A program made the translations under genes and the position numbers. From NCBI GenBank assembly GCA_902516625.1, contig CABXYU010000003.1:18312-82311 (forward strand): a stretch of 64,000 nucleotides of DNA, in the 5' to 3' direction. Numbering within the stretch: position 1 is the first letter of the stretch; each line of letters opens with the position of its first letter. The DNA is from an uncultured Pelagibacteraceae bacterium (GTDB lineage: Bacteria; Pseudomonadota; Alphaproteobacteria; Pelagibacterales; Pelagibacteraceae). Below are positions 34,777 through 58,551 of the stretch, piece by piece. The notes beneath the pieces are model-generated. The model ran no database searches. It was not told the DNA's origin and worked only from the letters and a program-made list of their open reading frames with translations.

Positions 34777-35243
34777 CCCATTACTCCAATTAATTTTAAG
34801 AAAGGATCTCTTAAATAAATATCAAGAACACCATGCAACAAATACATAAACGTAGCCACAAATGGAAATGACAAAAAAAACATTAATATCCATCTTCTTT
34901 CGCCTAAAAAATAATAAGAGGCAAATAAAAACAAAGAAGTAGTTAAAAAGTATCCAACCTTTAGAATTGTTGCTCCATATATAATTGCTATTAGAATTAA
35001 TATTCCTGTTTTTTTGTACTCTAAAGATTTATATTCAACTTTAATGGTATCAGGATCTGGTAAGATTAATTTTAAACCAGAAAAGAATAGACCAGAGTAA
35101 CCTAGATAAATTGGAAATGTTTTGGCATTAAAAGGTGCATTTTCATCAAATGCAAATACCTGAATTTGGTGAGCAGTATATAAATAAAATGCTGAGAAAA
35201 TAAAAAAGAGCAGTGATATAATTTTTGTAGTATTTATATTCAC
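34773..35243 (-). CDS. tctB: Tripartite tricarboxylate transporter, small permease
   Basis: 156 aa, GTG start, 4 TM; between tctC and tctA. Confidence 0.9.
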   Translation of the reverse strand: MNINTTKIISLLFFIFSAFYLYTAHQIQVFAFDENAPFNAKTFPIYLGYSGLFFSGLKLILPDPDTIKVEYKSLEYKKTGILILIAIIYGATILKVGYFLTTSLFLFASYYFLGERRWILMFFLSFPFVATFMYLLHGVLDIYLRDPFLKLIGVMG

Positions 35244-35251
35244 TGCTCTTT
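35204..35251 (-). promoter_or_regulatory. Terminator-like/start-codon-sequestering hairpin at tctC-tctB junction
   Basis: 12-bp perfect inverted repeat aaagagcagtga (35205-35216) / tcactgctcttt (35240-35251), followed on minus strand by T-run; contains the tctB GTG start (35243-35241). Confidence 0.6.
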
Positions 35252-35258
35252 AAATTTA

Positions 35259-35275
35259 TTAATCCGAAGGATTAA
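35259..35275 (-). other. Small hairpin at tctC stop codon
   Basis: ttaatcc-gaa-ggattaa, 7-bp perfect stem overlapping the tctC stop at 35272. Confidence 0.45.
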
Positions 35276-36252
35276 ATAACTCCTAGCTTTTTCATAAGAG
35301 CTGTCATTTCTTTAGTTTGAGTTTTTAAAAACTTAACAAACTTTTTGTCTGGATTGTAAATATTAACCCAAGCATTTCTTGCTCTTACAGCTTCCCATTC
35401 AGGAGTTTTTTGTACATCACCTAACATTTTAGCAATAGCTTTTTTATCTTTATTGCTCATGCCTGGAGGGCCAAAAAATCCTCTCCAATTTACGAATTGT
35501 ACATCATATCCTTGTTCTTTAAGTGTTGGTGCATCTGGTGCATCAGAAACTCTTTCAGGTGCAGTAATACCAATAATTCTTACTTGGTCTCTTGCCCCCA
35601 TAAGTTCACCTAAACCTGTAGAAATAATTTGAGTTTCTCCAGATAAAAGTCCTGCTAATGCCTTTCCACCTGCATCGTAAGGAATATAAGCTACATCATT
35701 TGGATTTGCACCGGCAGCTTGGAAAGCTAAAGCACCAATTAAATGGTCCATACTTCCTCTTACAGAACCACCAGCCATTTTAATTGAACTAGGGTTTGCT
35801 TTGTATGCATCCACAACATCTTTAAAGTTTTTGTAAGGTGAGTCTTTAGCAACTGCTATCGCACCGTAGTCACCAATTACTCCAGCTATTGGCACAACAT
35901 CTTTATAAGATAAAGTTCCACTTCCACTTACATAACCCTTATGTCTTGTGATTGATCTTAAAACTAAAGGTGTTGATTGTACTAATATAGTATTTTCAGG
36001 CTTAGTATTAATCATAAAAGCAAGTGCTTTTCCACCACCACCACCTGACATGTTTTCAAATGATGCGCTTTTTAAAAATCCAGCTTTTGTTAAAGCTTCT
36101 CCAGTACCTCTAGCAGTTCCATCCCAACCACCACCAGCACCCCCACCAATTACAAAGTGTAATTTTTCAATTGCAATTGAGTTTACTGTTGTTGTTGATA
36201 ATAAAAGAACAGCTGAGAATAAAACTGAAAAAAAAGATTTAATTAGTTTCAT
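35272..36252 (-). CDS. tctC: Tripartite tricarboxylate transporter substrate-binding protein
   Basis: Signal peptide; LHFVIGGGAGGGWDGTARGTGEAL; DAPDAPTLKEQGYDVQFVNWRGFFGPPGM. Confidence 0.93.
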   Translation of the reverse strand: MKLIKSFFSVLFSAVLLLSTTTVNSIAIEKLHFVIGGGAGGGWDGTARGTGEALTKAGFLKSASFENMSGGGGGKALAFMINTKPENTILVQSTPLVLRSITRHKGYVSGSGTLSYKDVVPIAGVIGDYGAIAVAKDSPYKNFKDVVDAYKANPSSIKMAGGSVRGSMDHLIGALAFQAAGANPNDVAYIPYDAGGKALAGLLSGETQIISTGLGELMGARDQVRIIGITAPERVSDAPDAPTLKEQGYDVQFVNWRGFFGPPGMSNKDKKAIAKMLGDVQKTPEWEAVRARNAWVNIYNPDKKFVKFLKTQTKEMTALMKKLGVI

Positions 36253-39918: not shown

Positions 39919-40589
39919 TTAAAACTGTATTTTTTCTCTAAAAATTTTATCACATTATGAATTAAAAAAGTCATAAATAGATAAATACCACCTGCTACAA
40001 TAAATACTTCTATGGGTTTAAAAGTTGTAGAAATTATATATTTTGCAACTCCAGTTAAATCCATTATTGTAACTGTACTAGCGAGAGAAGTTCCTTTCAT
40101 CATTAAAATAATTTCATTTCCATATGCTGGTAATGACTGTCTAATAGCGATTGGTATTTGAATTTTATAAAAAATTATTTTATTAGGAATTCCTAAACTC
40201 TTTCCGGCCTCTATAATACCAGGTTTAATTGTTTGGAATGCTGATCTTAAGATTTCAGATGTATAAGCACCCGTATTAAGTGCAAAAGCAATTATTGCAC
40301 ACCAATATGGTTCTTTTAAAATTACCCATAATACTGTTGATCTTAAATATTCAATTTGACCTAAACCAAAATAAATAATGAATATTTGAACTAATAATGG
40401 CGTTCCTCTAAATACATATGAATATCCATATGCAAATTTATTAACAAAACTGTTTTTGTGTAATCTTAAGAGTGCAAAAAATAAACCGATAAACAATCCT
40501 ACAATTAAAGAAACTGATAAAAGTTTTAAAGTTATTACAGCAGCACTAATCAATTTTGGAAAACTATTAGACATTAATTCAAAATCCAT
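39915..40589 (-). CDS. Polar amino acid ABC transporter permease
   Basis: YSYVFRGTPLLVQIFIIYFGLGQ; NTGAYTSEILRSAFQTIKPGIIEAGKSLG. Confidence 0.93.
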   Translation of the reverse strand: MDFELMSNSFPKLISAAVITLKLLSVSLIVGLFIGLFFALLRLHKNSFVNKFAYGYSYVFRGTPLLVQIFIIYFGLGQIEYLRSTVLWVILKEPYWCAIIAFALNTGAYTSEILRSAFQTIKPGIIEAGKSLGIPNKIIFYKIQIPIAIRQSLPAYGNEIILMMKGTSLASTVTIMDLTGVAKYIISTTFKPIEVFIVAGGIYLFMTFLIHNVIKFLEKKYSFN

Positions 40590-41281
40590 TAGTACCCCCT
40601 GCTATACTTTACTTCTAATTTATTGATTAGTTTCATGCTTAAATAAGTTAACATCAAATATAGAACTGCTGCAAAAGAGTAAAAAAACAGAGGATCTCTG
40701 GTGGATCCAGCCGCAATATAAGATTGTCTCATTATTTCGACTAAACCTGTTACAGAAATTAATGAGGTATCTTTAAGAGTGATTTGCCAAACGTTACTAA
40801 GATTTGGAATTGCAAGTCTAAGCATTTGGGGAAGAATAATTTTATAAAATTGTTTAAATTTACTAAAACCTAAAACTTTAGCGGCTTCAAATTGACCTTT
40901 GTCTATTGATTGAATCGCTCCTCTAAAAACTTCTGTAGAATAAGCACCAGAAATAATTCCAATAGCAAATGAACCAGTTACAAATGCATTGATCTCTATG
41001 TATTCATTATAACCAAACATTGAGGCAACAAACATTATTGCTCCACTTCCTCCAAAAAAGAAAAGATAAATGACAAGAAGTTCAGGCACTCCTCTAATTA
41101 CTGTTGTGTAAATATTCGCTACTAAGTTTAAAGATTTGAATTTGGATAATTTTAATGGAGTAAAAATCCCAGCAAAGCTAAAACCAATTACCATCGCTGT
41201 AATTGATACGGCTATTGTCATTAGAGTGGCTCGGAATAACTCATCACCCCAACCAGTATCACCAAATGCTAGAAGTTCCAT
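40589..41281 (-). CDS. Polar amino acid ABC transporter permease
   Basis: TTVIRGVPELLVIYLFFFGG; GAYSTEVFRGAIQSIDKGQFEAAKVLG. Confidence 0.93.
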   Translation of the reverse strand: MELLAFGDTGWGDELFRATLMTIAVSITAMVIGFSFAGIFTPLKLSKFKSLNLVANIYTTVIRGVPELLVIYLFFFGGSGAIMFVASMFGYNEYIEINAFVTGSFAIGIISGAYSTEVFRGAIQSIDKGQFEAAKVLGFSKFKQFYKIILPQMLRLAIPNLSNVWQITLKDTSLISVTGLVEIMRQSYIAAGSTRDPLFFYSFAAVLYLMLTYLSMKLINKLEVKYSRGY

Positions 41282-41287
41282 ACAGAC

Positions 41288-41312
41288 TGGCGACTATACA
41301 TGATAGTCGCCA
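41288..41312 (-). other. Intercistronic hairpin between amino-acid SBP and permease genes
   Basis: TGGCGACTA (41288-41296) / TAGTCGCCA (41304-41312), 9-bp perfect stem, 7-nt loop, no U-run. Confidence 0.65.
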
Positions 41313-41326
41313 AATCTAAAATTTAA

Positions 41327-42157
41327 TTACATAGAAGCGTCGAAACCGAACCATTTAGTAGCTATTCTACTAATATCTCCGTTCTTTCTTGCTTTATTGA
41401 TTGCAGCATTAAACTTTTTCAAAAGTTCAGTATCATCTTTTCTAATACCAACTCCAACACCGTTTCCAAATGCACCACCTGAAAAAGTTGGGCCTGTTAA
41501 TACAACTGGTTTTCCTGATTTTTCTGCATAATCACTGAATGCTACCGCTGCAGCCAATGCAGCATCACATCTTCCTGAAGCTAAATCTAAGTTCACTTCA
41601 TCTTGTGTTTTATACGTTCTTACATTTACTTTTCCAACATCACCTGAGTCTAAAAAGTTTTGGTGAATTGTTGCAGTTTGTACACATACAGTTTTACCTG
41701 CTAGTGCCGTTGTAAGAGTTTTTAATGCTTTTTTCGCAGCTGCATTTGGTTTAGTGAGATTAATTCCAGCCGGAGTATCTAAACCCTCTAAGCTTGAACC
41801 TTTCATAACAGCTAAAGATGCAACTTCATCAGCATAACCTTGAGAAAAGCTAATAGCTTTCTGTCTTTCTGCAGTAATTGACATTCCTGCCATTATTGCA
41901 TCAAACTTTCTCATAATTAGTGCTGGTATCATTCCATCCCAATCTTGCTCAACTATCGTACACTGCTGTCCAATATATCTGCACAATGTGTAAGCTAACT
42001 CCACTTCAAATCCGATTAATTTACCAGACTCATCTTTAGAATTCCATGGAGGGTAAGCGCCTTCTGTTCCAATTCTTATTTTATCAGCATTAGCATTCCC
42101 TATAACTAATAAAGAAAGTAAAACTGAAAAAATAAATTTTTTGAATATATTCATCAT
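41327..42157 (-). CDS. Polar amino acid ABC transporter substrate-binding protein (Arg/Orn/Lys/octopine type)
   Basis: Signal peptide, KIRIGTEGAYPPWNSKDESGKLIGFEVELA; FDAIMAGMSITAERQKAISFS. Confidence 0.92.
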   Translation of the reverse strand: MMNIFKKFIFSVLLSLLVIGNANADKIRIGTEGAYPPWNSKDESGKLIGFEVELAYTLCRYIGQQCTIVEQDWDGMIPALIMRKFDAIMAGMSITAERQKAISFSQGYADEVASLAVMKGSSLEGLDTPAGINLTKPNAAAKKALKTLTTALAGKTVCVQTATIHQNFLDSGDVGKVNVRTYKTQDEVNLDLASGRCDAALAAAVAFSDYAEKSGKPVVLTGPTFSGGAFGNGVGVGIRKDDTELLKKFNAAINKARKNGDISRIATKWFGFDASM

Positions 42158-42214: not shown

Positions 42215-43255
42215 TTAATGATTTATTGATGATGAGAAATTCCAAGAACAGTCAAAACTAGGCACATAAACCCTTGATAATTTAGTATTTCCAAAATGGT
42301 GGTGAAAGATATTCAGCCAATTTTCAACTTGGTGGGGTTTTTTATCTTGACTTCCAACTTGAGCAGTTATTACTCCTTTAGGTTTCAAAATTCTTACTAA
42401 AGAGTCCATATTTTTTGCTGCAAGATCAATACAGAATTGATCATCATTTAGATCAACAAATATATGATCGTAAGTATCTTCTTTTACTGACTTTATACTT
42501 TCAAATGCATCACCCCAAACACATTTCACAGAATTCTTTTCAGTAGCTTTTTTTCCAATATCTCCTAAATGTTTATTACAGACGTCTACTACCTCAGGAT
42601 CTAGTTCATACCAATCTATAAAATTAAACTTTTTAGAAATACATTCTCGTGCAACACCGCCATCTCCCCCACCAATTATTGCAGCTTTGTCATTATTTTT
42701 ATTCAATTTTAAACCTGAGCCAATAAAAGTTGAGCTATAAAGATGCTCGTCTGATGACGCTACTTGAATTTCACCATCGATAAACAAAGATTTTCCAAAC
42801 TGCTCAAGTTCTAAAATTTCTATATGTTGACCTACTTTTGATTTAAAGTCTTCTAAAACTTCGTTAACTACATATGCTTTTTGAAGTCCTGGGGAGCTGT
42901 AAATATCATGATAAAGAGACCTAGTGTCTCTATTAAATTCCTTTTTAACAATTCTTTTGTACCTAAATTCGCTTTTAATAATATCTATTGCTACAGATGG
43001 GCTTATTTTTCCACATGTAAAAAAATCAAAGCTAATTATTCCTTTCTCTGGAAAAGTATGAAAACTTATATGGCTTTCTGCCAATAAAGCCAAAATAGTA
43101 AAACCCTGGGGTTCAAATTTATATTTGGATATATTTAATATAGTAACGTCAGCTGCTTTTGCAATTTTCTTGATAACTTTTTCATAAACAGAAGGATCAT
43201 ACTCTTTTGAAGTTCCAATTATATCTAAAGTAATATGCTCCCCAACTTTAATCAT
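42215..43255 (-). CDS. Fused S-adenosylmethionine decarboxylase (SpeD) - spermidine synthase-like (SpeE) protein
   Basis: N-terminal ESHISFHTFPEKGIISFDFFTCG (class 1b AdoMetDC with ES processing site), C-terminal AAIIGGGDGGVARECI...WYELDPEVVDVC...GDAFESI aminopropyltransferase. Confidence 0.92.
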   Translation of the reverse strand: MIKVGEHITLDIIGTSKEYDPSVYEKVIKKIAKAADVTILNISKYKFEPQGFTILALLAESHISFHTFPEKGIISFDFFTCGKISPSVAIDIIKSEFRYKRIVKKEFNRDTRSLYHDIYSSPGLQKAYVVNEVLEDFKSKVGQHIEILELEQFGKSLFIDGEIQVASSDEHLYSSTFIGSGLKLNKNNDKAAIIGGGDGGVARECISKKFNFIDWYELDPEVVDVCNKHLGDIGKKATEKNSVKCVWGDAFESIKSVKEDTYDHIFVDLNDDQFCIDLAAKNMDSLVRILKPKGVITAQVGSQDKKPHQVENWLNIFHHHFGNTKLSRVYVPSFDCSWNFSSSINH

Positions 43256-57550: not shown

Positions 57551-58492
57551 ATGAAAAAAATAATTAGTTTTATTTTAGGATGTTTTGTAGCTCTTAACCT
57601 TAGCATTTCAGTTGCAAATTCTGCAGCGAATGAAGTTAGAGTTGCTTACTTTCTAGAATGGCCAAGTCCAAATTTAGAGGACATGCAAAAAAAAGCATTT
57701 GCAAAAGCACTTGGAGTACCAGTTAAATGGACAAACTTCACTAATGGTGGAGCAATGACTGATGCAATGTTAGCAGGAGATATTGATATTTCTTACTCTC
57801 AAGGATTAGTGCCTTTTATTAATGCGGTAAAATCTAAAGCACCAATCAAACTAGTTGATATTGCTATGGAATATGGAATGGGAGGAACAACTTGTGTTAC
57901 TTCTAATGCCTCAGGTATTACAAAAGCAAACGCTACTGAATTAGAGGGTAAAAAAGTTGCTGTTCCACTAGGAACAATGGCTGAGTATGTTTTCGATGAA
58001 AGTATGAAGGTTGTTGGAGCTGACAGAAAAAAAATGGATATTATTCAAATGGACCCTGAAGAAGGTGCTGCTGCTTTAGTAAGTGGCGATGTTGTAATGG
58101 CATGTTTATTTGGTGGTAACTCTATTAAAGCTGCAACTGCAGTTGGTTCTAGATTATTAACAGTTCAAGAAGCTAGAGATGCTGGTATCCTAGGAATAGA
58201 CATAACTTCAGTAACTACAAAGTTTATGAAGGAAAATCCTGGTATGCTTAGAACTTTTATAGAAGTGACTCATGAAGCTAATGCCAGATATAGAGCTGGT
58301 AAAAGTGATATGAACTCTATGTCAAAAGCTTCGGAAATGAAAGTTGCTGATATGAAAGAAACTTTAAGTGGCTTTAAGTTCCTAACTCCAGATGAAACTA
58401 AAAAATCCATGGAAAGTGGAAATCTTGATGCATTCTTAAAAGGAATGGGAACACCAAGAGGAAACGTAGACACTAGTTTCTTACCTCTATAA
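57551..58492 (+). CDS. tauA: Taurine-type ABC transporter substrate-binding protein
   Basis: Signal peptide; VRVAYFLEWPSPNLEDMQKKAFAKALGVPVKWTNFTNGGAMTDAMLAGDIDISYSQGLVPF. Confidence 0.88.
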   Translation: MKKIISFILGCFVALNLSISVANSAANEVRVAYFLEWPSPNLEDMQKKAFAKALGVPVKWTNFTNGGAMTDAMLAGDIDISYSQGLVPFINAVKSKAPIKLVDIAMEYGMGGTTCVTSNASGITKANATELEGKKVAVPLGTMAEYVFDESMKVVGADRKKMDIIQMDPEEGAAALVSGDVVMACLFGGNSIKAATAVGSRLLTVQEARDAGILGIDITSVTTKFMKENPGMLRTFIEVTHEANARYRAGKSDMNSMSKASEMKVADMKETLSGFKFLTPDETKKSMESGNLDAFLKGMGTPRGNVDTSFLPL

Positions 58493-58516
58493 TCTTATAG
58501 AGATAGAAAAATTTAA

Positions 58517-58551
58517 TAGGCGCCAATTCTAAAATTGGTGCCTATTTTTTT
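58517..58551 (+). terminator. Intrinsic terminator/attenuator between tauA and tauB
   Basis: taggcgccaat (58517-58527) / attggtgccta (58534-58544) followed by T7; one G-T wobble. Confidence 0.85.

Follow-up and report, generated by a model that had tools for sequence, protein, structure and literature searches.

We examined a window of 64,000 nucleotides (the whole stretch of DNA analyzed) from an uncultured Pelagibacteraceae bacterium, in which the three genes of a tripartite tricarboxylate-type (TTT) transporter lie on the minus strand. The operon begins with tctC, which encodes the solute-binding protein (SBP; PF03401; positions 35272 to 36252). It is followed by tctB, for the small membrane subunit (PF07331; 34773 to 35243), which starts with GTG, and by tctA, for the large membrane subunit (PF01970; 33274 to 34776), which shares an ATGA overlap with tctB. 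Only 28 nt separate tctC from tctB in the window, and the stop-to-start distance in relatives is mostly 22 to 35 nt. The GTG is the sole plausible start of tctB, because an in-frame TAA stands at -9 to -7 (35252 to 35250), because the next in-frame ATG, GTG, or TTG is found near codon 101, and because the GTG is present in 69 of 69 lineage representatives.

The junction of tctC and tctB holds a perfect 12-bp inverted repeat on the minus strand, AAAGAGCAGTGA and TCACTGCTCTTT, at 35240 to 35251 and 35205 to 35216 with a spacing of 23 nt. Folding adds a UAUAA/UUAUA pairing above one bulged A, which brings the hairpin to 17 pairs with a 12-nt loop, and the whole element reads AAAGAGCAGUGA-A-UAUAA-(12)-UUAUA-UCACUGCUCUUU. 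The 5' arm of the main stem (AAAGAGCAGUGA; 35240 to 35251) contains the GTG start (35243 to 35241). Its outer two bases differ among relatives, so that the outermost two stem pairs (-8 and -7) are variable and the conserved stem begins at AGAGC. A bulged A lies between the outer and inner stems (35239, minus strand), and most relatives retain an unpaired base at this position. Above it, the inner stem (35234 to 35238 with 35217 to 35221) and the variable 12-nt loop (35222 to 35233) occupy 35217 to 35238, where the pairs +6/+27 and +9/+24 covary. The 3' arm (UCACUGCUCUUU; 35205 to 35216) is made of tctB codons 10 to 13 (Ser-Leu-Leu-Phe), and its two Leu codons, CTG and CTC/CTT, are frozen by pairing. 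Past the stem lies a T-rich stretch (TTTATTTTCT; 35195 to 35204, minus strand), which is accounted for by Phe and Ile codons and is not conserved as a U-run.

A preliminary description of this DNA had claimed that a 12-bp hairpin buries the GTG of tctB, and this was confirmed: the perfect arms were located, the GTG lies in the 5' arm, and the hairpin is far more stable than expected (shuffle z = -5.5, with 0 of 200 shuffles equally stable). When the start regions of 61 crudely called genes of the window were folded, that of tctB was the most stable, at -18.8 kcal/mol (mean, -5.9; standard deviation, 3.3). Among 59 start codons, the GTG of tctB was computed to be the least accessible. The start codon was also predicted to be closed in every lineage, with an accessibility of about 0, which amounts to a computed sequestration of the start. 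From the tctC stop to the base of the hairpin there are about 20 nt. The operon thus has a strong hairpin where its SBP gene gives way to its permease gene.

The 5' arm had further been described as containing a Shine-Dalgarno-like AAAGAG, and this part of the claim is weaker than described. The AAAGAG is too near the GTG to serve as a good Shine-Dalgarno sequence, and no Shine-Dalgarno-like motif was found at -18 to -4 in 36 of the 69 relatives. A Shine-Dalgarno sequence in the 5' arm was therefore rejected as a general feature, being missing in about half of the lineages. Just upstream, a small hairpin that we call SL1 (TTAATCC-TTC-GGATTAA; 35259 to 35275, minus strand) includes the tctC stop codon. 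Its arms change together in relatives (TAATCC/GGATTA, CTAACC/GGTTAG), and it is absent from part of genus g4. Because SL1 is frequent and not universal in relatives, it was kept out of the core element.

Conservation and covariation of the stem

We compared the junction across relatives spanning seven genera of Pelagibacteraceae, the window's own genus among them, which yielded 166 distinct tctB orthologues and 69 lineage representatives. A hairpin over an invariant GTG was found in 166 of 166 distinct orthologues across the seven genera, and the core pairs (-6 to +4 with +28 to +37) were each formed in 97 to 100% of the sequences. Codon choice in the overlapped coding sequence was strongly constrained. 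Codon 11 was CTG in 68 of the 69 lineage representatives, and codon 12 was CTC in 64 of them and CTT in the remaining five, compared with a background of 1 to 2% in the rest of tctB (19 CTG and 34 CTC among 1,517 Leu codons). When codons 2 to 15 were redrawn synonymously from the gene's own usage, an equally stable fold arose in at most 1 of 200 trials in any lineage (mean z, about -6).

Among 61 distinct sequences, 93.4% of cells were paired and four pairs had changed on both sides. The covariation score was 0.134, compared with 0.069 for shuffled columns (0 of 500 shuffles reached it) and at most 0.056 for slid structures, and the same stem was recovered independently by RNAalifold. On a tree built from tctB codons 17 to 156, the -5/+36 pair (G-C/A-U) changed four times, each time on both sides, and no one-sided intermediate of this pair was found among the sequences. 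Position +36 corresponds to the third position in Leu codon 12. Covariation of a coding arm had been named in the preliminary description as one of the checks to make, and it is borne out by these four two-sided switches and by the 0 of 500 shuffles. The inner pairs +6/+27 and +9/+24, which are likewise third codon positions, switch among U-A, A-U, and G-C. Six single transitions were inferred in the core; every one of them gave G-U on the mRNA strand and none gave A-C, a pattern that indicates RNA of this strand and not a DNA palindrome.

A sign test on strictly independent branches had too few pairs to reach 0.05, and the claim of covariation is therefore based on the counts of changes, the shuffles, and the slid controls. 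An additional covariation that we considered, between a G at -8 and TTC in codon 13, was unsupported on independent branches. The stem (GCRGUGA with UCRYUGC) varies even less in sequence than base pairing by itself would demand, which counts against the function proposed below. The conserved structure, the covariation, and the constrained wobble positions of the overlapped coding sequence indicate that the hairpin is under strong selection as RNA. The start codon and the rare Leu codons of tctB are held in place by RNA structure, and conservation there should therefore not be taken as protein constraint.

Hairpins after other binding-protein genes

Paralogous TTT operons of the same family carry unrelated sequences at this junction, and in most of 16 such junctions a strong hairpin lies a short way past tctC. 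Several of these hairpins sit in the first tctB codons and are terminator-like. They do not have to cover the start codon. The second TTT system of the window's genome (L241), for instance, has AAAAAAGGGCAAAC-AAAA-GTTTGCCCTTTTTTTTT, with the look of a textbook terminator, inside the first tctB codons. In L241 (G000:C15:7000-8500), and also in L228, L231, L235, L243, and L245, a GGGC...GCCC stem with a T-run lies inside the first ~25 codons of the paralogous tctB; the encoded residues differ between relatives (KKRANKSLPFF, KKGGFLSALF, KKGRFNSALF) and the hairpin is retained. What the junctions have in common is thus a hairpin located behind tctC, and not one that covers the start codon.

Each of the three SBP-like genes in the window conforms to a pattern of strong hairpins behind SBP genes: among 66 gene 3' ends, they hold ranks one, three, and five. 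A similar hairpin (TGGCGACTAT-CATGT-ATAGTCGCCA; 41288 to 41312, minus strand) stands after an SBP_bac_3 gene (41327 to 42157) and before a permease gene (40589 to 41281); it stops 6 nt short of the permease ATG and lacks a T-run. Another (ATAGGCGCCAATT...AATTGGTGCCTAT, then a T-run; 58516 to 58545, plus strand) follows an NMT1-like SBP gene (57551 to 58492). Just upstream of the SBP_bac_3 gene, a single reading frame (42215 to 43255) gave a match to S-adenosylmethionine decarboxylase (PF02675) and another to spermidine synthase (PF01564).

To place these hairpins in a whole genome, 1,042 same-strand gene junctions of one complete same-genus genome (G082), with crude gene calls, were ranked by hairpin energy. 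Among the 40 top-ranked upstream genes that were scanned, 21 were SBP genes of ABC, TRAP, and TTT systems. The first SBP comparison used seeds picked from the strongest hairpins; because such a list is hairpin-selected and the comparison circular, the test was repeated with SBP genes obtained from four Pfam searches. A hairpin of -18 kcal/mol or lower before the next gene was then found for 15 of 16 SBP genes versus 40 of 1,026 other junctions (P = 1.4e-19). When gap lengths were matched and the remaining known SBP genes were taken out of the comparison, the counts were 15 of 15 versus 17 of 209. The SBP hairpins of G082 are mostly intergenic, and a U-run is present in many and absent in several. 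Similar hairpins after nearly every SBP gene in G082 probably keep the binding protein in excess.

Very strong within-operon hairpins were also seen in G082 after genes for EF-Tu, a rhodopsin-like protein, and acyl carrier protein (L305, L330, and L325; one gene ending at 75562, the others at 565309 to 566076 and 478341 to 478580), which suggests that the same device may be used beyond transporters in this genome.

Proposed function and alternative explanations

We consider it reasonably likely that the element is a hairpin that sets the stoichiometry of SBP and permease through 3' protection, partial termination, or both, and that in this operon it sits on the permease start, where it would also throttle translation of tctBA. 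The sequence data show a selected hairpin of about 15 to 17 bp, beginning about 20 nt after the tctC stop, in which the start codon of tctB is base-paired; its effects on mRNA ends and on translation are inferred. Being the first strong structure to follow tctC, the hairpin may halt some RNA polymerases, block 3'-to-5' exonucleases after cleavage within tctBA, or do both, and the outcome at the mRNA level would be a stable tctC-only mRNA. Nearly all other SBP genes in G082 are followed by hairpins that would have this mRNA-end function in common with the one in tctCBA. Because the copy of the hairpin in this operon covers the start codon, fresh ribosomes would hardly initiate at tctB, which would then be translated mainly by ribosomes coming from tctC; low initiation and such dependence are expected given the hairpin's computed stability. 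Translation of tctA would depend on the same ribosomes by way of the ATGA overlap. The net effect would be an excess of TctC over TctBA that is constitutive and not set by a ligand. Low permease output relative to TctC had been proposed in the preliminary description, and such a role fits the genome-wide pattern of SBP hairpins.

Since a hairpin after the SBP gene is common across SAR11 and burial of the start is not, gating at the tctB start is probably a special case, and the general function is probably that of a 3' stabilizer or partial terminator after the SBP gene. In sequence data, the relative weights of protection, termination, and start occlusion appear inseparable.

A purely translational gate, in which the hairpin would hide the tctB start, only ribosomes from tctC would translate the gene, and the mRNA end would play no role, seems unlikely to us. 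Coupling by RNA unfolding is well documented (PMC12548453). At tctB, it would accord with a start codon computed to be closed in every lineage, with the short stop-to-start distance, with an ATGA overlap that would relay gating to tctA, and with a GTG kept in 69 of 69 lineage representatives even though ATG combined with a paired TTG would leave the protein unchanged. The paralogous tct junctions and most other SBP junctions, however, carry their hairpin off the start codon, either between the genes or inside the next gene. Moreover, the footprint of a terminating ribosome probably ends short of ~20 nt past the stop, and the base of the tctB hairpin probably lies outside it. We regard as less likely still a pure intrinsic terminator or attenuator, whose stem and U-run would end most transcripts after tctC and whose overlap with the start would be incidental. 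The stem is present and is followed in the window by TTTTTTATTTT, many other SBP hairpins in G082 resemble textbook terminators, and internal terminators with longer stems and fewer U residues than canonical ones have been shown in Clostridia (PMC9045158). On the other hand, the 12-nt loop with its bulged A and weak inner stem is atypical, a terminator scan permitting loops of up to 8 did not report the hairpin, and several other SBP hairpins are without a U-run. The U-run that had been described as ending the hairpin does not behave as a selected tract: the U content of the 8 positions after the stem is 6.42 versus a synonymous expectation of 6.28, no richer than Phe codons predict, and the first U-run is broken down to 2 nt in 20 of the 69 lineages. 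With no excess over the synonymous expectation, it was rejected as a conserved terminator tract.

A regulated switch, in which a ligand, protein, or temperature would open the stem, is very improbable, even though the invariance of the stem beyond the needs of pairing might reflect a factor that binds it. Within the element it is the loop that varies, the flanks are not conserved either, and there is a single stem without an aptamer-like conserved loop or junction. Rfam gave no family at the gathering score near the hairpin, and its sub-threshold matches were mostly to unrelated families, such as microRNAs; a riboswitch or a known RNA family was rejected in view of the variable loop and the lack of an Rfam match at the cutoff. 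The start stays paired at 4, 15, 25, and 37°C in silico, which led us to reject an RNA thermometer. The ligand switch that had been suggested earlier is unsupported, since the loop is not conserved, Rfam gave no match, and no response to temperature was predicted. In searches at the order and class levels, all strong model hits (at least 62 bits) fell in genomes that carry this tctB orthologue, with weak hits elsewhere, and one N18 pattern hit was seen in genome G324. A regulon sharing the motif was rejected because the window's own genome has a single exact site. Hardly credible, finally, is the view that there is no RNA element and that the repeat is due to chance or is a palindrome in the DNA to which a regulator binds. 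The core is indeed a palindrome with a conserved sequence, but the covariation in a stem with a bulge, the six G-U events on the mRNA strand without any A-C, the 0 of 500 shuffles, and the covariation of the inner stem at third codon positions all argue against it.

The preliminary interpretation as a whole is partly supported, and we favor the SBP/permease stoichiometry hairpin. SAR11 bacteria are among the most abundant cells on Earth and have high-affinity uptake and few classical regulators. It is a real possibility, if not quite a probable one, that in SAR11 one dedicated hairpin per SBP gene, in ABC, TRAP, and TTT systems alike, is the main route to an excess of SBP over permease, with the tctCBA copy fused with the start codon, exerting dual control, and dictating synonymous choices through RNA. 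If this is true, a simple sequence rule would explain strongly unequal output from one promoter in a streamlined genome. A rule for the ratio of SBP to permease across SAR11 transporters would be directly checkable in existing SAR11 transcriptomes.

Relation to known systems

Hairpins at SBP/permease junctions are, as a kind, already known. In the open-license papers that were searched, we found no description of the version on a start codon with covariation across the arms, nor of a near-universal rule of SBP hairpins in a SAR11 genome. Candidate structured RNAs have been reported for "Candidatus Pelagibacter ubique" from a search of intergenic regions only (Meyer et al. 2009, PMC2704228). 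Like the tctB hairpin, these are cis elements of SAR11, and the hairpin of the "rhtB element" is also found near livM/livK, about half of its examples having a poly-U tract; "tct" was not found in the main text of that paper.

Systems of translational coupling by RNA unfolding, for which models have been reviewed (PMC12548453), resemble tctCBA in having a structure over the downstream start and a short intergenic distance. In those systems, however, the upstream ribosome reaches the structure, whereas about 20 nt lie between the tctC stop and the tctB stem, so that ribosomes would have to reinitiate or scan.

Partial internal termination at stem-loops that follow SBP genes has been shown by Northern blotting in cellulolytic Clostridia (PMC9045158). 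These stem-loops likewise lie between SBP and translocator genes; they have long stems and fewer U residues than canonical terminators and are thought to set SBP excess. Unlike tctCBA, the Clostridia cases are ABC operons in which termination was shown, and the portions cited report no burial of a start codon (PMC9045158).

The 3'-protective hairpins of the E. coli malE-malF type are often found inside the next coding sequence and have conserved wobble positions, and in E. coli transporter operons the SBP mRNA is invariably the stabilized, longer-lived one (PMC5927463). The tctB hairpin is like these in being a strong hairpin right after an SBP gene that may overlap the downstream coding sequence and whose wobble positions are conserved. 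Unlike the embedded hairpins of E. coli, whose mean position is about 107 nt inside the coding sequence and which lack a U-tract (PMC5927463), the SAR11 tctB hairpin sits on the start codon and is followed in the window by T-rich sequence, and the SAR11 hairpins, known from sequence, occur in TTT, TRAP, and ABC operons.
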